DNA of 15,645 nt from Patescibacteria group bacterium (GTDB lineage: Bacteria; Patescibacteriota; Patescibacteriia; Patescibacteriales; JAHJJO01), in NCBI GenBank assembly GCA_018822835.1, contig JAHJJO010000069.1, forward strand, positions 1 to 15,645, in the 5' to 3' direction. Under the pieces are notes generated by a model. The model was not told where the DNA came from, ran no database searches, and saw nothing but the letters and a program-made list of their open reading frames with translations. Of the stretch, positions 1 through 14,075 are shown piece after piece. How positions within the stretch are numbered: position 1 is the stretch's first letter; every line of letters starts with the position of its first letter. The position numbers and the translations under genes are program-made.

Positions 1-495
1 AAACTGGAAACCGAGAACAAAGAATCCCGCCACTCATCTGACCTTTTCGCTCAAAATCTCCGTGATAGTGTTTCCGCCATTAAAACACGCCTCGAACGAC
101 TGACAGACGCATATCTTGGCGAGGCATTGGAATTAGCCGAGTATCAAGAGAAAAAGAATGTTTTAATGGCGGAAAAGAAAACATTTGAGGAGAAATTATC
201 GGATTTTGAACGAAAAGGTAATCATTGGCTCGAACTCATGCGAAACTGGATTATTGAAGCCAACCAAGCCGAAAATCTCATTAAACAAGAAAATCTTTCG
301 GGTATGAAAGATTTTCTTGTGGACATCGGCTCGAACCGCCGACTTTCGGCGGGAATTCTTTCGGCGGAATTCAAAACCCCCTGGAATTTCTTGGCGGAAA
401 CCAATGCCGAGGGGCGAAGCCCCGAGGCAACTTATTTGGCAAATCAACTTTGGTGGAGATGGCGGGAGTTGAACCCGCGTCTAATAAAGTCTTAA
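1..495 (+). CDS. Serine recombinase-like protein, C-terminal fragment (5' end outside window)
   Basis: The frame is open from base 1 to the TAA at 493-495, so the start lies left of the window. The visible ~164 residues are a charged, coiled-coil-type segment (LERLTDAYLGEALELAEYQE, then EKLSDFERKGNHWLELMRNW) followed by a motif GSNRRLS and a TPWNFLAE segment. This is the C-terminal pattern I associate with large serine site-specific recombinases, especially those of CPR genomes; the catalytic serine domain is not in view, so the assignment is by resemblance. GC content and codon use (GCC, CTC, CGC) are higher than in the neighbours, which suggests transfer. The last 15 codons (WWRWRELNPRLIKS and stop) are simply the antisense of the tmRNA 3' end, so the element probably integrated at ssrA and the reading frame was completed by host sequence. 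Confidence 0.7.
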   Translation, partial: KLETENKESRHSSDLFAQNLRDSVSAIKTRLERLTDAYLGEALELAEYQEKKNVLMAEKKTFEEKLSDFERKGNHWLELMRNWIIEANQAENLIKQENLSGMKDFLVDIGSNRRLSAGILSAEFKTPWNFLAETNAEGRSPEATYLANQLWWRWRELNPRLIKS

Positions 496-887
496 AAATA
501 TTTTTACAGAAATGTCCTGATTTAAATTTTCACCGCTATTCTAAAAAATCAGGCAAAAAGAATAACAACTATTCCTTAAATTTTCAATTTACAAGCAAGG
601 ACATCTTATAAATCTATCTTCATACCACGCATCTAAAAGACGCGAGGCATAACACCTGTTTTTAGCTATGAAGACTCACTAAGACAGATGGTTGCAGTTT
701 ATTACTAAACCGCAACATAAGCAAAGTTAGGCATGCTAAAGGCAGTTTTCACCGCGTTATAAGCAGCTGTTACTTTGCTGGCAATTGTATTTACACTTAT
801 TGTTTTTGAGATAAGATTAGCGCGCCATCCCAAAATGCGCGTCCTGAATATTTTTAATGAACTTTATTATCGATGCCTGGCACCCCC
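451..887 (-). ncRNA. ssrA: tmRNA (ssrA)
   Basis: This is transfer-messenger RNA for rescue of stalled ribosomes, acting with SmpB, whose gene lies immediately upstream. The 5' end GGGGGTG (887-881) pairs over all 7 positions with CATCTCC (461-455), followed by A73 (454) and an encoded CCA (453-451). The third pair is G885-U457, the G3-U70 alanine identity pair used by AlaRS. The T-arm is at 462-478 with stem GCGGG/CCCGC and loop TTCAACT. After the acceptor strand comes a degenerate D-loop (CCAGGCATCGA), as in known tmRNAs. The internal part contains a tag reading frame ending in three stops (TAG TAA TAA, 707-699), followed by about 220 nt that can hold pseudoknots. The 437-nt length is somewhat longer than the usual ~350-400. 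Pseudoknots were not folded. Confidence 0.95.
705..782 (-). other. tmRNA proteolysis-tag reading frame
   Basis: The frame ends at TAG (707-705), followed at once by TAA TAA. The likely resume codon is GCC at 782-780, 106 nt from the tmRNA 5' end, set in AAATACAATTGCC, which resembles the region before the resume codon of Bacillus-type tmRNAs. This gives 25 codons beginning ASKVTAAY and ending NFAYVAV, to which the charged alanine is added. The frame is also open further upstream, so the resume codon is inferred. The ending -VAV differs from the usual -LAA/-VAA. Confidence 0.6.
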
Positions 888-890
888 GGA

Positions 891-968
891 ATCAATTATC
901 AATTAACAATTTTCAATTATCAATTAATAAAAAATTAATTGTAAATTGCAAATTGATAATTATTAATT
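891..968. repeat. AT-rich short-unit repeat cluster (CAATTATCAATTA family)
   Basis: Degenerate head-to-tail and inverted units such as CAATTATCAATTAACAATT and TTGATAATTATTAATTG fill this stretch. They cover the ssrA promoter region and the last ~11 codons of smpB. Related units recur inside miaB (1573-1611) and upstream of clpB (13893-14047). Confidence 0.8.
895..923 (-). promoter_or_regulatory. Candidate promoter of ssrA
   Basis: On the minus strand, TTGATA (923-918) and GATAAT (900-895) are separated by 17 nt, and the -10 ends 8 nt before the tmRNA 5' end at 887. Both hexamers are built from units of the TTGATAATTG repeat, so the promoter may be repeat-derived. It may only supplement read-through from smpB. 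Confidence 0.45.
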
Positions 969-1405
969 GCCTTGGCTGTTTCCCTTTTTTTTATTGCTTC
1001 TCTCTTGTCAACTTTTTTCTTTCCTTTTCCAATTCCAAATTCTAATTTAATAAAACCATGTTTAGTATATATTTTTAATGGAACTAATGTCAATCCTTGC
1101 TCTTGTTTTTTGCCGATTAAATGTTGTATTTCTTTCTTTTTTAATAATAATTTTCGCGGTCTTGTTGGATTATAATCTTTTATCATTCCAGCATGTTTAT
1201 ATAAAGAAATATGAGCGCTAATTAGATATAATTCTGGCAATTTCTTTTTGTCATTTTGCTTTACAGTCACATAGCTTCCTTTTAAATTAATATGTCCTGT
1301 TTTAACAGACTTAACTTCATGCCCCAGCAACACCAATCCTGCTTCGTATTTTTCTTTAATTTCATAATCAAAATTAGCGCGTTTATTGATAGTTATAAAG
1401 TTCAT
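935..1405 (-). CDS. smpB: SsrA-binding protein SmpB
   Basis: SmpB binds the tRNA-like domain of tmRNA and delivers it to the empty A site. The 156-residue product has the family pattern: FDYEIKEKYEAGLVLLGHEV near the N-terminus, KSVKTGHINLKGSYV, YKHAGMIKDYNPTRPRKLLL, then EQGLTLVPLKIYTKHGFIKLE and the basic GKGKKKVDKREAIKKRE. It sits directly upstream of ssrA on the same strand, a natural functional pair. Two oddities appear. The ATG (1405-1403) lies within an ATAAAGTT-type repeat, so MNFIT is repeat-encoded. The final residues, INNYQFAIYN, are encoded by the AT repeat instead of the basic helical tail usual in the family. No clear Shine-Dalgarno precedes the start; an initiation codon elsewhere is possible but the conserved core needs a start near here. 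Confidence 0.93.
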   Translation of the reverse strand: MNFITINKRANFDYEIKEKYEAGLVLLGHEVKSVKTGHINLKGSYVTVKQNDKKKLPELYLISAHISLYKHAGMIKDYNPTRPRKLLLKKKEIQHLIGKKQEQGLTLVPLKIYTKHGFIKLEFGIGKGKKKVDKREAIKKRETAKAINNYQFAIYN

Positions 1406-1496: not shown

Positions 1497-3248
1497 TTAT
1501 AAACTAATTTTCCCTTTTAATCCAAAATCCTTAACATCTATAATCTTCACTTTAACAAATTTGCCTGCCAAATTCTTAATTGATAATTGATCATTGACAA
1601 TTGATAATTGTTTACCGGTTTTTGTCTTTCCATGCCATTCTTCTCTCTTGTTTTTATCATCTACTAACACATCAACAACTTGACCTAAATATTTTTTATT
1701 ATTTTCTAACGCGGTTTTTCTTAAAATTTTTGTTAACTCTTGTTCTCTTCTTTTTTTTTCTTGTTTTGTCACATTATCTTTTAATTTTTCAGCAGCAGCG
1801 CCTGGACGCAAACTGTACTGTGAAATATACGCCATATCAAATTTTACTTCTTTGAACAATTTAACAGTGTTGTTAAATTGTTTTTTAGTTTCTCCTGGAA
1901 AGCCAACAATAACATCAGTAGTAATAGACGCTGGTAGATTCCAAAGGTTTCGGGTGTTTAAATTTTTATGATATAATTCGTTTGATGTAGGGGTAACTTG
2001 GTGTGGACGTTGGATTGCCAACCAATGCTCCGGGGGTTCAATTCCCCCTACCTCCACATCCTTTTGATTTTTACTTGACAACTTTTTTATATATGCTATA
2101 TTACTAATAATTGGTTGGCAATCTACTTTTCGCATCAAGTTGGAGTAAACAAAATCCTCTGCATTTGCAGGGGTTTTTGTTTTTGTTGAATTAATTGCTT
2201 TGCAAATTTTATTAATTAATTTTTTATAGTGTTCAACAGTATAATTTCTATTCATTGCTTTTAAAATTTCATTATCTCCTGACTGTGCTGGCAAGTGAAT
2301 ATGTTCGCAAACTTTTTCGCATTCAGCAATTGTTTGAATTAGTTCATCACTCATATCTTTAGGGTGGCTGGTCAAAAATCTAATCCAAAAATTCCCGGGA
2401 ATATTATTTATTAATTTTAGTAAATCAGCAAAATCAATTTTATAACCATTTATAATTCGTGATTTGTAGCTATTGACATTTTGTGCTATTAAAATAATTT
2501 CTTTATAATTATTTTTAACTAATTCTTCAACTTCTTTTAAAATATCTTTCACTGATCGATATGCTTCCCTACCGCGCGCGTACGGAACAACGCAATAAGA
2601 ACAAAAATTATTACATCCATTTCCAATCGGCACAAAAGCGCTAAATTTAGATTGATATTTTGGTTTAATGTTTAAATAATTTTCAGGAGCGTGGCATAAT
2701 GAATCTGATGTGGGGGTAACAAGGTGTGGAGCCCGGCTTATCACCCAGGGCTCCGGGGGTTCAATTCCCCCTACCTCCACATTGTTTTGATTTTTATTTG
2801 ACAAGTTTTTTATACATGATATATTGTTAATAACTGGGTGATGAGCCAAATTCCACGCCGAATAGGAGCGAATAAAAACCTCTGTATTTACAGGGGTTTT
2901 TGTTTGGGCAAATAAATTTTTTAATTTTAAATTCAATTTTGGCAGTTCAGTAATTTTCAGCCAAACATCAACTTTGTCTTTTAATTTTTTTATTACATCT
3001 TTTCGTTGGCTTAAACACCCGGTTAAAATAATTTTAGTTTTAGGATTTTGTTTTTTAATTCTATCTACAAGACCGTAAGCTCTATTTTCAGCTGACTGCC
3101 TAACACCGCATGTATTAATTATAACAAAATCAGCTTTTTCAACGCTATTGGCCATCGCATATTTATGTTTTTCTAAATAACCAACTATGCGTTCACTATC
3201 GCTTTGATTCATAGAACAACCGATTGTAATGATATAGTATAGATACAT
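1497..3248 (-). CDS. miaB: tRNA-2-methylthio-N6-isopentenyladenosine synthase MiaB, with two 65-codon inserts
   Basis: Radical-SAM methylthiotransferase that adds the 2-methylthio group to i6A37 of tRNAs. Counting from the ATG at 3248, the N-terminal cluster cysteines are C11 (TIGCSMNQSDSE), C47 (INTCGVRQ) and C78 (LTGCLSQ); the radical-SAM CxxxCxxC (CNNFCSYC) is near residues 212-219; a TRAM-type domain closes the protein (GKFVKVKIIDV). The frame remains open to 3278, but the family normally begins just before the TIGC motif, so 3248 is preferred. About 583 residues against ~440-475 in the family: the excess is two homologous inserts encoded by 2707-2901 (between the N-terminal and radical-SAM domains) and 1984-2178 (just before SITTDVIVGFPGET), plus a small repeat insert (QLSIVNDQLSI) in the TRAM region. 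No frame is broken, so the gene may be functional with surface insertions, or the inserts may be removed at RNA level; the sequence alone cannot say. Confidence 0.9.
   Translation of the reverse strand: MYLYYIITIGCSMNQSDSERIVGYLEKHKYAMANSVEKADFVIINTCGVRQSAENRAYGLVDRIKKQNPKTKIILTGCLSQRKDVIKKLKDKVDVWLKITELPKLNLKLKNLFAQTKTPVNTEVFIRSYSAWNLAHHPVINNISCIKNLSNKNQNNVEVGGIEPPEPWVISRAPHLVTPTSDSLCHAPENYLNIKPKYQSKFSAFVPIGNGCNNFCSYCVVPYARGREAYRSVKDILKEVEELVKNNYKEIILIAQNVNSYKSRIINGYKIDFADLLKLINNIPGNFWIRFLTSHPKDMSDELIQTIAECEKVCEHIHLPAQSGDNEILKAMNRNYTVEHYKKLINKICKAINSTKTKTPANAEDFVYSNLMRKVDCQPIISNIAYIKKLSSKNQKDVEVGGIEPPEHWLAIQRPHQVTPTSNELYHKNLNTRNLWNLPASITTDVIVGFPGETKKQFNNTVKLFKEVKFDMAYISQYSLRPGAAAEKLKDNVTKQEKKRREQELTKILRKTALENNKKYLGQVVDVLVDDKNKREEWHGKTKTGKQLSIVNDQLSIKNLAGKFVKVKIIDVKDFGLKGKISL
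1573..1611. repeat. QLSI-type repeat inside miaB
   Basis: AATTGATAATTG-type units make the miaB reading frame encode QLSIVNDQLSI between the TRAM segments EWHGKTKTG and LAGKFVKV, where relatives have a short loop. It is the same family as the repeats at 891-968. Confidence 0.75.
1984..2060 (+). ncRNA. tRNA-like domain, copy B
   Basis: An extended terminal stem GATGTAGGGGTA/TACCTCCACATC (1984-1995/2049-2060) contains a 7-bp acceptor with G1991-U2053 as the third pair and one A-C mismatch at position 1-72. The T-arm GGGGGTTCAATTCCCCC (2032-2048) has a textbook TTCAATT loop. There is no D-stem, only ACTTGGTGT. The central arm (2005-2031) carries ATTGCCAA in its loop. It is not a normal tRNA, because U8 and the D-arm are missing. 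Confidence 0.65.
2075..2102 (+). promoter_or_regulatory. Promoter within copy B
   Basis: TTGACA (2075-2080) and TATATT (2097-2102) are 16 bp apart. Copy A has the same boxes and spacing although the spacer sequence differs, and the clpB promoter has nearly the same form. The predicted start is near 2109-2110, exactly where the complementary 14-mer begins. Confidence 0.7.
2109..2178 (+). ncRNA. Putative small RNA, copy B, with 5' complementary segment
   Basis: The expected transcript of ~70 nt starts with ATTGGTTGGCAATC (2110-2123), the exact reverse complement of 2013-2026 in the tRNA-like domain. A ~30-nt linker with GGAG at 2142-2145 follows, then the terminator. It is antisense to miaB. 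Expression is inferred from promoter and terminator only. Confidence 0.55.
2156..2178 (+). terminator. Intrinsic terminator, copy B
   Basis: A 7-bp stem CCTCTGC/GCAGGGG with loop ATTT is followed by TTTTT. The third pair is U-G on the plus strand but would be A-C on the minus strand, which favours the plus strand as the functional one. Confidence 0.7.
2707..2783 (+). ncRNA. tRNA-like domain, copy A
   Basis: A 12-bp terminal stem (2707-2718/2772-2783) includes the acceptor GGGGGTA/TACCTCC with a G2714-U2776 third pair and A at position 73 (2779), followed by CA where a tRNA would have CCA. The T-arm at 2755-2771 is identical to copy B. The central hairpin is a perfect 7-bp stem GGAGCCC/GGGCTCC (2728-2734/2748-2754) with a 13-nt loop GGCTTATCACCCA. 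Only ACAAGGTGT stands where a D-arm would be, reminiscent of the tRNA-like domain of tmRNA. Confidence 0.7.
2798..2825 (+). promoter_or_regulatory. Promoter within copy A
   Basis: TTGACA (2798-2803), 16-bp spacer, TATATT (2820-2825). The predicted start is near 2832-2833, one or two bases before the complementary segment. Confidence 0.7.
2832..2901 (+). ncRNA. Putative small RNA, copy A, with 5' complementary segment
   Basis: The expected transcript begins with CTGGGTGATGAGCC (2834-2847), complementary to GGCTTATCACCCAG (2735-2748) in the loop of the tRNA-like domain, with 13 Watson-Crick pairs and one U-G pair. The linker keeps GGAG (2865-2868) at the same offset as copy B. Confidence 0.55.
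2879..2901 (+). terminator. Intrinsic terminator, copy A
   Basis: A 7-bp stem CCTCTGT/ACAGGGG with loop ATTT, then TTTTT. The closing pair is U-A here and C-G in copy B, a compensatory change; the U-G third pair is kept in both. Confidence 0.7.
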
Positions 3249-3289
3249 AAAACAGTCTATAAAGCATGCCCTGAGCAAAAGCGTAGGGT

Positions 3290-3323: not shown

Positions 3324-4907
3324 TTATTGTACCCAAAATTTTTTCTTTAACTCCTCATCATCCTCCATTTTTTTTTCTTCAATTTTTTCTTTGGCTTTAT
3401 AACGCAATTCTTCTAATTCTAAATTATTTAATTCTTTGCTTTTTTTTTCTAAGTATTTTTTATTATCTAATTTTGGATCTTCAATAATTTTTGATAATAA
3501 TACGTCTAAAATAGCTCCTATTTTCGGACTTGGTTTGATGTTTAATAATTTTATTAAATCATCACCATTAATTTTTAACATTTTTACTGAAAGAGGGTCT
3601 TTCCGAACTTTTTTCATCATATATTCTAAATGCCTTAATTTGTATGGCTTTGCTTTTGGCACTCCAGAACCTAAACGATCTGCCACTCGCAAATCAATTA
3701 AATCTTTTAAATTATCTTCCCCAACATTATAAATTAAACGCCTTACAGAACTTGCTGTAACCTCATCAACATTATAATAAAACATATGATTGCGAATTAA
3801 TTCAGTGATTTTTTTAATATCTGCTTGAGAAAACTTTAATCTCTGCATTATTTTTATTGTAATTTTAGCTCCAATAATATCATGGTTATAAAAAGTTGCT
3901 ATTCCTTTAATAAATTTTTTAGTCTGCGGTTTTGCAATATCATGGCACAAACAAGCAAACCGCACTCGCCAATCCTTGCTTGGACAATATTTTAAAGACA
4001 AAACTAAATGCTTAAAAACAGTATAAGTATGATGTCTGCTTTGATCAATATTAATTCCATATTCTAATTCAGGCATAATATATTGTAATAATTTATTTTT
4101 ATGAAGAAGTATAATTCCATCGTATGCCATCTTGGATTTTAATATTTTAATCAACTCGTCTCTAATTCTTTCATTAGAAACAAATTTAATCCCGCCTGCC
4201 ATTTTTTTAATCGCTCTTTCGGTTTTTGGCTCAATTTCAAATCTAAGCTGGCATGCAAACCGAATAGCCCGCATCATTCTTAAAGCGTCTTCCTTAAATC
4301 TGTCTATTGGCTCCCCAACAGCTCTTATTATTTTCTTCTTAATATCCTTCTCTCCACCGAACAAATCTACCACCGCATAACGTAGAGCGCATAACGCATA
4401 ACATTTTTTTTTGTTTTTTAAATCTGACATCTGACACCTGACATCTGACATCTGAATCGCCATCGCATTTATTGTAAAATCCCTGCGTTCTAAATCTTTT
4501 TCTAATTTTTCCTCAAATACCACCTTATCAGGATGCCGTCTGTCAGCATAACCATGCTCTGAACGATAAGTTGTTATTTCAATGCCTTGATTTTTAATTC
4601 CTAATTCCTTATTCCTTATTCCTAATTCCTCATTCACTATAACCGTTCCAAATTTATTCTCATATCTTCCATTTGAAAAAACTTTTAAAATTTCATCCGG
4701 TTTTGCGTTAGTGGTAACATCCCAATCTTTTGGTTTTTTCTGTTTAGCCTCCGAAGCTCCCTTCTTAACCAACTTATTCTCCGAAGTTGAAGAAGCGCAG
4801 GAGACCATTAACAAATCCCGTACGCATCCGCCAACAATATAGGCCTCAAATCCGGCTTTATTTAATTTGCTTATTATATTTTTTACATACTCAGGTATTT
4901 TGATCAT
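3324..4907 (-). CDS. cca: CCA tRNA nucleotidyltransferase (class II, with HD domain)
   Basis: Adds or repairs the 3'-CCA of tRNAs. The nucleotidyltransferase head shows VGGCVRD (residues 25-31), the metal-binding DWD (61-63), ITTYRSE, RRDFTINAMA (141-150) and EDALRMMRAIRFACQL (206-221); a C-terminal HD region has HHTYTVFKH (292-300) and CHDIAKPQTK (321-330), so it may also have phosphohydrolase activity. At 527 residues it is longer than ordinary bacterial enzymes (~400-450). Part of the excess lies in three low-complexity inserts in the head domain: residues 35-58, about 93-108 and 152-179. The last two are clearly made of short repeats. Each keeps the frame and lies in a loop between conserved motifs. 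The start ATG at 4907 gives the family's usual short lead before VGG; no strong Shine-Dalgarno is visible. Confidence 0.93.
   Translation of the reverse strand: MIKIPEYVKNIISKLNKAGFEAYIVGGCVRDLLMVSCASSTSENKLVKKGASEAKQKKPKDWDVTTNAKPDEILKVFSNGRYENKFGTVIVNEELGIRNKELGIKNQGIEITTYRSEHGYADRRHPDKVVFEEKLEKDLERRDFTINAMAIQMSDVRCQMSDLKNKKKCYALCALRYAVVDLFGGEKDIKKKIIRAVGEPIDRFKEDALRMMRAIRFACQLRFEIEPKTERAIKKMAGGIKFVSNERIRDELIKILKSKMAYDGIILLHKNKLLQYIMPELEYGINIDQSRHHTYTVFKHLVLSLKYCPSKDWRVRFACLCHDIAKPQTKKFIKGIATFYNHDIIGAKITIKIMQRLKFSQADIKKITELIRNHMFYYNVDEVTASSVRRLIYNVGEDNLKDLIDLRVADRLGSGVPKAKPYKLRHLEYMMKKVRKDPLSVKMLKINGDDLIKLLNIKPSPKIGAILDVLLSKIIEDPKLDNKKYLEKKSKELNNLELEELRYKAKEKIEEKKMEDDEELKKKFWVQ
4371..4454. 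repeat. Two short-repeat families inserted in cca (QMSDVRC and YALCALRYA)
   Basis: TCTGACATCTGACACCTGAC-type units (4423-4454) and CGCATAAC-type units (about 4374-4402) lie back to back. In cca they encode QMSDVRCQMSD and YALCALRYAV where relatives have a short loop before the DxFGG motif. The CGCATAAC family recurs at 9807-9838. Confidence 0.75.
4584..4634. repeat. ELGIRNK repeat inserted in cca
   Basis: Units of CCTAATTCCTTATT on the plus strand encode EELGIRNKELGIKNQ in cca, between FGTVIV and EITTYRSE. The same repeat, in the same reading frame and orientation relative to the gene, is in proS at 10910-10945. Confidence 0.8.
4734..4805. repeat. Low-complexity insert in cca near the active site
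   Basis: Encodes residues 35-58 of Cca, including SENKLVKKGASEAK, between VRDLLM and PKDWD, which are nearly adjacent in relatives. The sense strand has the short direct repeat CTTCGGAG on both sides of a ~22-base core. Family unknown. Confidence 0.5.
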
Positions 4908-4965
4908 TAAACACGAGAATTCCGTGAACTACAAAAAAAAGAGAGTTTTATAATTCAAAGGAAAA

Positions 4966-6996
4966 TTATTTTCTATAAAATCGCAACATTAACAAATTTT
5001 TAGTTACAATAATGGCTGAAAATAAAGAAATAATAATTCCAATAGTTAAGGTAATGGCAAAGCCCTTAACTATGCTTGTAGAGAATTGAATTAAAATAAA
5101 ACATGTTATTAAAGTAGAAATGTTGCCGTCTCGAATTGAAGGCCATGCGCGATGAAATCCCTCTTCAACAGCGTTTATGCGTGATCTTCCTGCTTTTAAT
5201 TCTTCTTTAATCCGTTCAAAAATCAGAACATTAGCATCAACGGCCATTCCAATTGATAAAATAAATCCAGCAATTCCTGATAAAGTTAAAGTCACTGGCC
5301 AAAGTTTAAATACTGCCAATACTAATGTTCCATAAATACACAAAGAAATAACAGCTAACAATCCGTTTATTCGGTAAAATAAAATCATAAATAAAGCTAT
5401 TAGAATTAACCCGATAATTCCAGCTCTTAAACTATTGCTAACAGACTTGCTACCCAAACTAGGCCCAACTGTTTTTTGGCTCACCAACGAAATAGGCACT
5501 GGCAAAGCTCCTGCATTAAGGCGTTGAACCAATAATTTAGCTTCTTTAAGATTAAATTTTCCGCTTATAACCGCTTTTCCGCCTGTAATTTTTTCATTAA
5601 CTGTTGGAGCGCTGATTAAATAACCGTCTAAAAATATCGCTACTTGCTTGTTAATGTTATTATTTGTAATTTCTTCAAATAAATTAGAACCTTGTTTATT
5701 AAATTCCAATCCTACTTCAGGAGAATTGTCATTAGGATTAAATTGAACAGTGGCTCGTTTTAAATCCTTTCCGCTTAATTCAGTGTTTTGCCAATCCTGC
5801 GTTGCGCCTAAAATATCTTGTTTGTTTATTGTCCTAATTAAAATATGGCTAATTTTATATTCATCAATATTTTTTTCGTCTTGCTTGTAAATTAGATGGT
5901 ATCCAAATTTTGTTGCAACCACATATGAAATCGTTCCAATTTTTTGTTCAAAAACAGCATCTTCAAATGGTTTTACCATATTTCCGCGTCCAAACCATCC
6001 TAATTCACCGCCACTTTGATCAGCCCCTGGTTCAGTTGAATGCTTTTTAACTAAATCTGAAAAATTATTTGTATTTGCTTGTTTTTTTATTTCTTTTATT
6101 TTCTCATAAACTTCTTCTTTGCTTGAATCGCTTTGGCATCCTTCGCTTTCTTTATAACAAAGCAACAAATGCGAAGCTTTTATTTGTTTTTCTTCTTTTT
6201 CAGTAAATGGATCTTTCTTAATTCTTTTATCCTCAAGTTTTATAATTTCATATCCATAATTAGTTTTAATTAAATCATTGGTAATTTCTCCAGTTTTCAT
6301 ATTTTGAACAACATCAATAAATTCTGGACTTTCTTTGTTTGTTATCCATCCAAGATCGCCGTTAGCTTCTTTTGTTTTTTCATCCTGGCTATATTCTTTT
6401 GCTAAAGCCCCGAAATCTCCTCTTGATAAAGCTTTTCCTAAAACTTCTGATGCTTTTTCTTCTGCTGTTTTATTAAAATCTTCCATTATTTTTTTTTCTT
6501 CATCTGTTAATTCGCGCTGCTGATCGCCATGTTGTTTAAATTCTAAAATTGGAGTTTCTCCTATTATTTTTATAGCTTCATTAATATCTTTAACACCTGC
6601 TAATTCAACAACAATACGATAATCTCCTCCTGCGGTTTTATTAACCTGCACAACTGGTTCGCTAACTCCAAAAACATTCACTCTGCGTTCAATAACATCT
6701 CTAGCTCCTTCTATTGCGTTAGACCTGTCTTTTGAGGGTATGTTTACAACATCTGCTTGATATACTAAATGCGCTCCTCCTTGTAAATCTAATCCCAATC
6801 TAAAAGGTATTTCTTTTACGCCTGGCAATTTAATAATATTATTAGTTTTGTTTGCAAGCCAAATAGACCCTTTGTTATAATAATTGCCAGCATCAATCAA
6901 TCCGCCAACAATTATTAATACGATAATTAAACCAAAAATCTGCCACATTCGTCCTCGCGCTGATGGTTTTAAAATTTTTTGTAAAACATTATTCAT
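4966..6996 (-). CDS. secD: SecD protein-export membrane protein with two inserted parvulin-like domains
   Basis: Sec translocon accessory protein that uses the proton gradient to help late export. One N-terminal membrane helix (about 18-36) precedes the SecD signature FRLGLDLQGGAHLVYQ (65-80) and RRVNVFGVSEPVVQ; the C-terminal part has five further membrane helices with SIGMAVDANVLIFERIKEE (581-599). Between ELAGVKDINEAIKIIGETP and the later periplasmic segment (AIFLDGYLISAPTV, 453-466) there is about 230 residues of PpiC/SurA-type rotamase sequence. The first module (about 175-258, GDLGWI and YGYEIIKLED) looks partial; the second (about 272-372, KASHLLL, SGGELGWFGRGNMV, FGYHLIYKQDE) looks complete, and ISHILI (382-387) hints at a third start. 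So the protein is 676 residues instead of about 450. secF is not adjacent; cca follows instead. No Shine-Dalgarno is obvious. Confidence 0.9.
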   Translation of the reverse strand: MNNVLQKILKPSARGRMWQIFGLIIVLIIVGGLIDAGNYYNKGSIWLANKTNNIIKLPGVKEIPFRLGLDLQGGAHLVYQADVVNIPSKDRSNAIEGARDVIERRVNVFGVSEPVVQVNKTAGGDYRIVVELAGVKDINEAIKIIGETPILEFKQHGDQQRELTDEEKKIMEDFNKTAEEKASEVLGKALSRGDFGALAKEYSQDEKTKEANGDLGWITNKESPEFIDVVQNMKTGEITNDLIKTNYGYEIIKLEDKRIKKDPFTEKEEKQIKASHLLLCYKESEGCQSDSSKEEVYEKIKEIKKQANTNNFSDLVKKHSTEPGADQSGGELGWFGRGNMVKPFEDAVFEQKIGTISYVVATKFGYHLIYKQDEKNIDEYKISHILIRTINKQDILGATQDWQNTELSGKDLKRATVQFNPNDNSPEVGLEFNKQGSNLFEEITNNNINKQVAIFLDGYLISAPTVNEKITGGKAVISGKFNLKEAKLLVQRLNAGALPVPISLVSQKTVGPSLGSKSVSNSLRAGIIGLILIALFMILFYRINGLLAVISLCIYGTLVLAVFKLWPVTLTLSGIAGFILSIGMAVDANVLIFERIKEELKAGRSRINAVEEGFHRAWPSIRDGNISTLITCFILIQFSTSIVKGFAITLTIGIIISLFSAIIVTKNLLMLRFYRK

Positions 6997-13886: not shown

Positions 13887-13892
13887 AGATAG

Positions 13893-14047
13893 TCAATTAG
13901 CAATTTACAATTAGCAATGAACAATTAAAATAATAAATTAAAATTTAATGCAAATTAATTGGATAATTGTTAATTGATAATTGGATAATTGTTAATTGTT
14001 AATTGTTAATTGTTAATTGTTAATTGTTAATTGTTAATTGTTAATTG
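13893..14047. repeat. AT-rich repeats and eight tandem TTAATTG heptamers in the clpB leader
   Basis: Units of TTAATTG repeat exactly eight times at 13992-14047, preceded by degenerate relatives (GGATAATTG, CAATTAGCAATT) down to 13893. It lies between the clpB start codon and its predicted transcription start, so it would be in the 5' untranslated region. The 346-bp gap between clpB and the dehydrogenase gene otherwise holds the clpB promoter, CIRCE and the two palindromes listed here. Confidence 0.85.
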
Positions 14048-14048
14048 T

Positions 14049-14075
14049 TTAGCACTCTCGTTATTTGACTGCTAA
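14049..14075. promoter_or_regulatory. CIRCE operator (HrcA site) of clpB
   Basis: TTAGCACTC-N9-GACTGCTAA matches the CIRCE consensus TTAGCACTC-N9-GAGTGCTAA with one mismatch. It covers the predicted clpB transcription start, the classical place for HrcA repression of heat-shock genes. Confidence 0.9.

Follow-up and report, generated by a model that had tools for sequence, protein, structure and literature searches.

Paired genes for a tRNA-like RNA and its antisense RNA in Patescibacteria: a possible RNA-RNA toxin-antitoxin-like module

Why a gene for a tRNA-modifying enzyme should carry, on its opposite strand, two copies of a tRNA-like RNA gene, each beside a short gene complementary to it, is the question raised by the window analyzed here (the whole stretch of 15,645 nt; contig C59 of the 805 kb Patescibacteria genome G000). 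The host gene is miaB, and the two elements had been described in an original prediction, made from the letters alone, as equal-length copies in which a central arm pairs with a segment just after a promoter. We propose, with a probability of about one in two, that each element is an RNA-RNA toxin-antitoxin-like addiction module, in which a charged rogue tRNA would be neutralized by its cognate antisense RNA. The features on which the argument rests are as follows.

1497..3278, minus strand: miaB (tRNA methylthiotransferase), matched above the cut-off by TIGR01574 in three stretches (E 8.7e-112)
1935..2192, minus strand: in-frame insert B of miaB, 86 amino acids, holding copy 1 on the opposite strand; missing in 6/6 aligned relatives
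1972..1977, plus strand: -10 box TATAAT of the copy 1 tRNA-like gene, 6 nt 5' of the stem, by direct reading
1984..2060, plus strand: copy 1 tRNA-like RNA, from the fold, covariance model, and pair counts, numbered by direct reading
2013..2026, plus strand: copy 1 arm segment predicted to pair with the antisense RNA, GATTGCCAACCAAT, perfect complement of 2110-2123
2075..2102, plus strand: predicted copy 1 antisense promoter, TTGACA (2075-2080), 16 nt, TATATT (2097-2102), by direct reading
2110..2178, plus strand: predicted copy 1 antisense RNA, with complement 2110-2141, terminator hairpin 2156-2173, and U run 2174-2178
2685..2915, minus strand: in-frame insert A of miaB, 77 amino acids, holding copy 2 on the opposite strand; missing in 6/6 aligned relatives
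2695..2700, plus strand: -10 box CATAAT of the copy 2 tRNA-like gene, by direct reading
2707..2783, plus strand: copy 2 tRNA-like RNA, from the fold (z -4.3), covariance model, and pair counts
2735..2748, plus strand: copy 2 arm segment predicted to pair with the antisense RNA, GGCTTATCACCCAG, complement of 2834-2847 with one G-U
2798..2825, plus strand: predicted copy 2 antisense promoter, TTGACA (2798-2803), 16 nt, TATATT (2820-2825), by direct reading
2834..2901, plus strand: predicted copy 2 antisense RNA, with complement 2834-2859, terminator hairpin 2879-2896, and U run 2897-2901

The miaB open reading frame (ORF), with the Pfam domains UPF0004, Radical_SAM, and TRAM, runs uninterrupted across both elements, whose RNAs are encoded on the opposite strand. 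The copies (1973-2182 and 2696-2905) were aligned without gaps at 78% identity, bearing out their equal length. The complementarity of the 14-nt central-arm segments with the segments after the promoter was likewise found, perfect in copy 1 and with one G-U pair in copy 2, as was the identical register of pairing. Across the 13 shared positions, the five compensatory double changes and the absence of mismatches claimed before stood, but there was one G-U pair and not two. In the window the complementarity exceeds 14 nt: it takes in the D-loop and reaches about 2141 in copy 1 and about 2859 in copy 2, for lengths of about 32 nt and 26 nt, with a 3-nt internal loop. In tRNA numbering, the acceptor stem of copy 1 (1989-1995/2049-2055) has G3 at 1991, U70 at 2053, and A73 at 2056, with a mismatched A-C first pair; an acceptor extension is formed by 1984-1988/2056-2060, the T arm spans 2032-2048, and an anticodon-like GCC (2017-2019) lies between U33 (2016) and A37 (2020). 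The acceptor of copy 2 (2712-2718/2772-2778) has G3 at 2714, U70 at 2776, and A73 at 2779, and its anticodon-like AUC (2740-2742) lies between U33 (2739) and A37 (2743).

A blast search of the genome led to two more copies in leuS on contig C52 (four matches, representing two loci), and contigs C3 and C100 carried a complementary segment upstream of a tRNA-like or tRNA gene. Contig C52 reads like an inverted repeat of itself, with mirrored matches at 1934-2577 and 4358-5001, and is probably an assembly artefact. Covariance models built from six copies (R1) and from 29 copies (R2) were used to search 288 relatives and 379 genomes drawn evenly across the phylum, giving 95 distinct elements (107 matches, 96 sources) in 55 Patescibacteria genomes, with a maximum of six per genome. 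This set comprises the strong matches that were fetched, all of at least 40.6 bits except L024 (27.7), and five matches judged by inspection to be ordinary tRNAs (L060, L061, L063, L065, and L095) were excluded before counting. Examined elements with a partner were present in at least 28/379 genomes of the phylum sample, G000 included, with up to 12 candidates scored per genome. The covariance model search suggested by the original prediction yielded further copies, both in G000 and elsewhere in the phylum, whose segments are new in sequence yet still complementary to each other. Its view that the layout belongs to no named family also held for 18/20 element loci, which had no Rfam match to the element at the gathering threshold; the other two were L090 (RF00005, 35.1 bits) and L037 (RF01852, tRNA-Sec).

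Partners were sought as complements to the arm within 130 nt on each side and on both strands, with a threshold score of 30. A cognate partner reached this score in 89/95 elements, compared with 2.6% of non-cognate pairings and 4/95 reversed arms, and for 78 elements the own flank was the best of the 95 flanks, supporting the functional RNA-RNA pairing and the tRNA-like/antisense layout predicted originally. Within the same 130 nt, 3/59 ordinary tRNAs had such a partner; these controls were ARAGORN calls in 57 loci, namely 27/27 matches of G000 (three under the family cut-off) and 30/43 of G200. A flank of 600 nt was a poor control, as 11/59 ordinary tRNAs then reached a score of 30. Non-complementary copies, which had been named beforehand as evidence that would count against the pairing, were confined to the six elements scoring below 30. 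Among these, L042 lies at a contig end, L101 scored 26.5, and L080 and L087 have a 9-bp match at the usual place, beside a promoter and terminator; the remaining two, L113 and L125, are taken up below.

One strand can also fold so that its two halves pair over a long range. However, the halves are separated by a promoter, and in other copies the antisense gene was found on the opposite strand or upstream, indicating that one long strand is probably not the natural unit, and a single long-range fold was rejected in favor of two RNAs. The 89 partners were located downstream on the same strand (63), downstream on the opposite strand (19), upstream on the opposite strand (5), or upstream on the same strand (2). 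Since the partner can thus lie on either side and on either strand, the two RNAs would act in trans. The antisense RNA is complementary to the D-loop and to the anticodon stem and loop of the tRNA-like RNA. Its promoter scored at least 9/12 in 92% of the 89 loci, compared with 9.6% of 438 random sites in the same loci, and terminator-like hairpins followed the antisense segment in 90%, compared with 17% at random. In 48/89 the antisense -10 box ended 6 or 7 nt 5' of the complement, so that transcription would begin near the pairing segment. For the tRNA-like gene, a -10 box matching the consensus at five or six of its six positions lay within 20 nt of the stem in 57/94 elements. The mean promoter scores were 8.2 for the tRNA-like gene (n = 92), 10.2 for the antisense gene, and 7.1 for random sites.

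Between copies, the stems diverge with the antisense partner tracking them; the acceptor identity and the anticodon loop are retained. Four copies in G200 share a GGU loop and a like acceptor, but no two have the same stem, and each stem is matched by an antisense of its own. Each of the six pairs in G000 favored its own partner by predicted energy, with a margin of 3 to 18 kcal/mol. At one leuS site in G000, G084, and G073 the arms differ, and each is complementary to its own antisense.

How far is the first RNA a tRNA? The acceptor (7 bp) stacks on a T stem of 5 bp whose loop is normal, and there are a D-loop with GG and a long anticodon-like arm, with no D stem in the covariance model. Leader-trailer pairs lengthen the acceptor by up to 5 with compensatory variation; the three outermost do not form in 31 to 43 of the 95 elements. 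Predicted anticodon-like loops had 8-9 nt in 56/95 elements and 7 nt in 15/95. The family departs from the canonical cloverleaf (D stem, 7-nt loop), and ARAGORN called a tRNA overlapping the element at 3/33 loci (L037, L090, and L117). In the alignment of the 95 elements, which was fitted to the model, the structure was 89.4% paired, compared with at most 55% when slid, and the covariation was 0.712, compared with 0.183 after shuffling.

Pair 3:70 was G.U in 77, C-G in 17, and U-A in 1 of the 95 elements, subject to a mild bias of the covariance model, which was trained on G.U and C-G examples; pairs 4-7 were variable. The alanine set of G2-C71, G3.U70, and A73 was present in 77/95, counting L024, for which the register was forced by the model and the hand reading is A3-U70; 74 of these also had G1-C72. 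In two genomes, one of them covered in part, G3.U70 together with A73 was found in 5/5 tRNA-Ala and 0/54 other ARAGORN tRNAs. G3.U70 is the classic alanine determinant, and the bacterial alanine identity set, in the portion of the source available, lists no anticodon element (PMC9976931). Charging by alanyl-tRNA synthetase (AlaRS) is therefore predicted irrespective of the triplet. A U73 class of 13/95 has an acceptor like that of this lineage's tRNA-Thr; glycine identity was ruled out for it, as GCC..GGC-U73 occurs in 5/5 tRNA-Thr and GCG..CGC-U73 in 5/5 tRNA-Gly. The remaining five elements had C2-G71-like stems with A73, or odd pairs. Separately, an odd tRNA of G000, L421 (G000:C120:1705-1779; 35.9 bits; ARAGORN Cys(ACA)), combines G3.U70 with U73.

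To locate the anticodon-like triplet, the tRNA register was combined with two criteria, U/C33 and A37; position 34, which was not used, was a purine in 95/95 (G 70, A 25). The triplets of the 77 alanine-type copies were GUC (30), GAC (14), AUC (10), ACC (6), GAU (5), GCC (3), and others (9). None of the 77 had an alanine triplet, with L091 set by hand (AGC by script, GCG by hand from the 7-nt loop CAGCGAA). A further genome scan by pattern ignored the anticodon loop, and its counts apply among the matches listed. A partner was present for 35/59 distinct fully paired acceptors, compared with 1/56 imperfect ones; six of the 35 were shared with the 95-element set and 29 were new. The other 24 fully paired acceptors include copies from other phyla. 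L217 (CUC) and L212 (CCU) were exceptions to the purine at position 34, and the parses of L158 and L239 were read by eye as GAC. The alanine identity, the anticodon loop in tRNA register, the pairing of two separate predicted transcripts, and the in-frame siting in miaB all go beyond the original prediction. Locus L090 (1296-1372 and 1501-1578) holds, on opposite strands and about 130 nt apart, a tRNA-like element whose triplet is GCG and an ordinary tRNA-Arg(GCG).

These features are arranged as an addiction module would require if the tRNA-like RNA were trimmed, given CCA, and charged by AlaRS with alanine, or with threonine in the U73 class. The charged RNA would then enter ribosomes, where its mostly non-alanine anticodon would cause misincorporation, or its long loop frameshifting. 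That the anticodon loop is conserved suggests decoding. Loops of 8-9 nt have a precedent for frameshifting, which could also serve the copies with a cognate anticodon. A mitochondrial tRNA with an 8-nt loop works as a decoder, according to the part of PMC7609411 consulted. The antisense RNA, made from the stronger promoter and starting at about the first complementary nucleotide, would open the anticodon arm and silence the tRNA-like RNA. Upon loss of the element, a stable tRNA would persist beyond a labile antisense RNA; such a module could reside inside host genes. In line with this arrangement are the stronger promoter on the antisense side, the co-divergence of orthogonal pairs, and the patchy occurrence among genomes. 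More tentatively, and at somewhat less than even odds, such modules may be widespread selfish RNA-only elements of Patescibacteria, whose toxin would be a charged, miscoding, D-armless Ala or Thr tRNA and whose co-evolving antitoxin would mask the anticodon, some being locked in essential genes or inteins with both strands under selection.

Several points weigh against the addiction module. The alanine anticodon AGC occurs on alanine-type L233 and L244, among the 29 new copies from the pattern matches listed, so no misincorporation is expected from these copies, and the 13 threonine-type copies have the cognate GGU in seven cases and GUC in six. CCA is encoded in only 31/95 elements, and the extended acceptor helix could obstruct trimming or charging. 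No partner was found within 130 nt for L113 (26.5) and L125 (19.5). Among the pattern matches listed, D-armless alanine-type matches with no near partner also occur in other phyla, as exemplified by L149, L232, L248, L185, and L218 from Acidimicrobiia, Chloroflexi, and a gammaproteobacterium. Finally, non-toxic mechanisms might also employ a charged tRNA under antisense control.

Such a mechanism would be a regulated auxiliary tRNA that serves the host, through mistranslation under stress, recoding, or non-translational donation of alanine, with the antisense RNA setting the timing. We regard it as unlikely, though it is the strongest of the alternatives. The retained acceptor identity and anticodon loop agree with it, as does the retention of some elements at one site across families (leuS), and tRNAProX is, in the available text of its source, a precedent for deliberate mistranslation (PMC10365949). 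Nevertheless, diverging stems and antisense RNAs, with several orthogonal copies per genome, suit self-specific modules better, the distribution is patchy (at least 28/379 sampled genomes of the phylum), and no recurrent enzyme gene was seen among the typed host and neighboring ORFs, which cover a small share of the neighbors.

The siting of the elements bears on a second alternative, a miniature mobile element of the Rickettsia palindromic kind, whose RNAs would serve its own mobility or copy-number control; the antisense RNA would regulate a primer RNA or a processing intermediate, and the tRNA-like part would act in processing or attachment. We consider it improbable. Consistent with it, 24/95 elements lie inside open frames of at least 200 codons, and 23 of the 24 frames are on the strand opposite the tRNA-like RNA, an orientation that would spare the host mRNA the terminator. 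The hosts include miaB, leuS in three genomes, ileS (slightly under the cut-off), and three ORFs with intein splicing domains (L046, L048, and L081; one sub-cut-off). In L048 the two ends of the domain match flank the element, which may occupy the place of a homing endonuclease. Weak PD-(D/E)XK nuclease matches were found in four host ORFs, one sub-cut-off and one also with an intein match, and the remaining host ORFs had no clear family. The peptides encoded by the terminator and T arm resemble each other between copies in an informal comparison. Rickettsia palindromic elements are described, in the part of the source seen, as small in-frame insertions in unrelated protein genes (PMC10969869), a likeness shared by the elements in open frames; unlike them, the present elements carry promoters, two RNAs, and a terminator. 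Moreover, 71/95 copies lie outside such frames, the window copies are little alike outside the two RNAs (target-site duplications were not searched for), and mobility does not require a conserved G3.U70 and anticodon loop. On the Falkowbacteria chromosome CP066698, three of five matches were intergenic, near, for example, metK and PEP-synthase-like ORFs. In leuS of G000 and G084 (L020/L040), another insert, missing from G073 in the alignment, directly precedes the element; from its motif, we take this insert to resemble a Nudix hydrolase domain.

It is quite unlikely that the RNA is a decoy for anticodon-cutting nucleases or AlaRS, acting by enzyme binding and not by decoding and tuned by the antisense RNA: the anticodon-like loops of several tRNAs are indeed combined with a tRNA-Ala acceptor in one small RNA, but the dedicated anticodon-arm antisense in 89/95 elements implies an RNA that needs silencing, which would be unnecessary for a harmless decoy. 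A dual guide-RNA system of the crRNA-tracrRNA kind, in which the tRNA-like/antisense duplex would load a protein, is very improbable. The antisense pairing of copies 1 and 2 does consist of two helices separated by an internal loop, like a repeat:anti-repeat duplex. No protein gene adjoining the elements recurred in the typed ORFs, save leuS and the four weak PD-(D/E)XK matches (other arm targets were not searched for), and such a system would leave the conserved alanine identity unexplained.

Is the proposed module then a known system? In type VIII toxin-antitoxin systems, as far as the available text of PMC10767807 goes, both partners are RNAs located near each other on the same or opposite strands, with SdsR-RyeA on opposite strands at a distance below 0, that is, overlapping; CreT-type toxins sequester rare tRNAs, and their antitoxins are antisense or CRISPR-mimicking (PMC12548467, in part). 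The elements resemble SdsR-RyeA and CreTA in having two close RNA genes, predicted here from signals (89/95 antisense segments within 130 nt), and a specific pairing of antitoxin with toxin RNA, here from sequence and predicted energy. They differ in that here the suspected toxin resembles a tRNA, and its antisense RNA comes from a short gene of its own. tRNAProX of Streptomyces and others also has an acceptor identity that disagrees with its anticodon and is toxic in E. coli; it is a proline-charged tRNA-Pro body beside a ProRSx gene, and no antisense RNA is mentioned in the accessible part of the paper (PMC10365949). Here, the RNA is of alanine or threonine type and D-armless with an adjoining antisense gene, and no ProRS was found among the typed hosts and neighbors of the elements. 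Allo-tRNAs (Mukai et al. 2017, cited through the part of PMC7609411 consulted) likewise have odd shapes and diverse anticodons, including GUC and GCG, but with an 8/4 or 9/3 acceptor domain and mostly serine identity, in Clostridia, Proteobacteria, and Acidobacteria; the domain here is 7/5 with no D stem. A related locus does match Rfam tRNA-Sec: L037 (G000:C100:9016-9108; RF01852, 54 bits) encodes a tRNA-Sec-like RNA with anticodon GCG, G3.U70, and an antisense segment upstream. The antisense pairing may perhaps extend to allo-tRNA-like genes.

A further likeness, in the window itself, is to transfer-messenger RNA (tmRNA), encoded beside miaB.

451-887, minus strand: complete tmRNA, adjoining the smpB-like ORF and miaB
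935-1405, minus strand: smpB-like ORF, by eye

The tRNA-like domain of tmRNA has no D stem, and neither do the elements. They also share the T arm and a G3.U70-type acceptor (read in the window tmRNA), and copy 2 had a sub-threshold Rfam tmRNA match (2712-2782; 37.2 bits, gathering 47). In contrast, the elements have no tag-coding part, with about 35-39 nt between acceptor and T arm. Given the absent tag and the complete tmRNA nearby, a piece of tmRNA was ruled out. By eye from the ORF list, we take the window neighbors to be smpB-like, CCA-adding-enzyme-like, and secD-like ORFs.

By their descriptions, none of the systems compared appears to combine all these features. To our knowledge, no tRNA is known to have an antisense RNA gene dedicated to it, and no report of such a tRNA/antisense pair was found among the open-licence papers searched or the titles and abstract openings listed. 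If charged, the tRNA-like RNA would provide a new means of poisoning or retuning translation, would extend RNA-RNA toxin-antitoxin systems to tRNA itself, and would account for the odd stretches inserted in frame into aminoacyl-tRNA synthetases and into a tRNA-modifying enzyme of these bacteria. Every locus is a naturally specific RNA pair, whose identity element and anticodon render the mechanism directly testable.

The 35 partnered copies among the pattern matches listed had 30 Patescibacteria-type titles, three titled 'bacterium', and two others (L212 and L175). The Patescibacteria titles listed were Peribacteria, Peregrinibacteria, Falkowbacteria, Parcubacteria/Paceibacterota, Pacebacteria, Gracilibacteria, Uhrbacteria, Moraniibacteriota, Roizmanbacteria, and Daviesbacteria. 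L175 is titled Planctomycetota, yet carries the same element as G092:C69, a relative of G000. Outside the phylum, L212 (Anaerolineaceae UBA1363) and L180 (Eremiobacterota, score 29.5) look genuine. In IMG/VR, the pattern matches were by eye mostly ordinary phage tRNAs and tmRNA ends, and a plausible partner was present for L286 and L291. Phage tRNA-like genes with G3.U70, A73, and the triplet GCA (cysteine) were also seen there (L255, L265, L337, and others), the best partner scores of these three being 29 to 31.5. Lastly, short A+T-rich dispersed repeats of the AATTGATAATTG type occur in the window at 894-973, 1571-1628, and 13892-14051.

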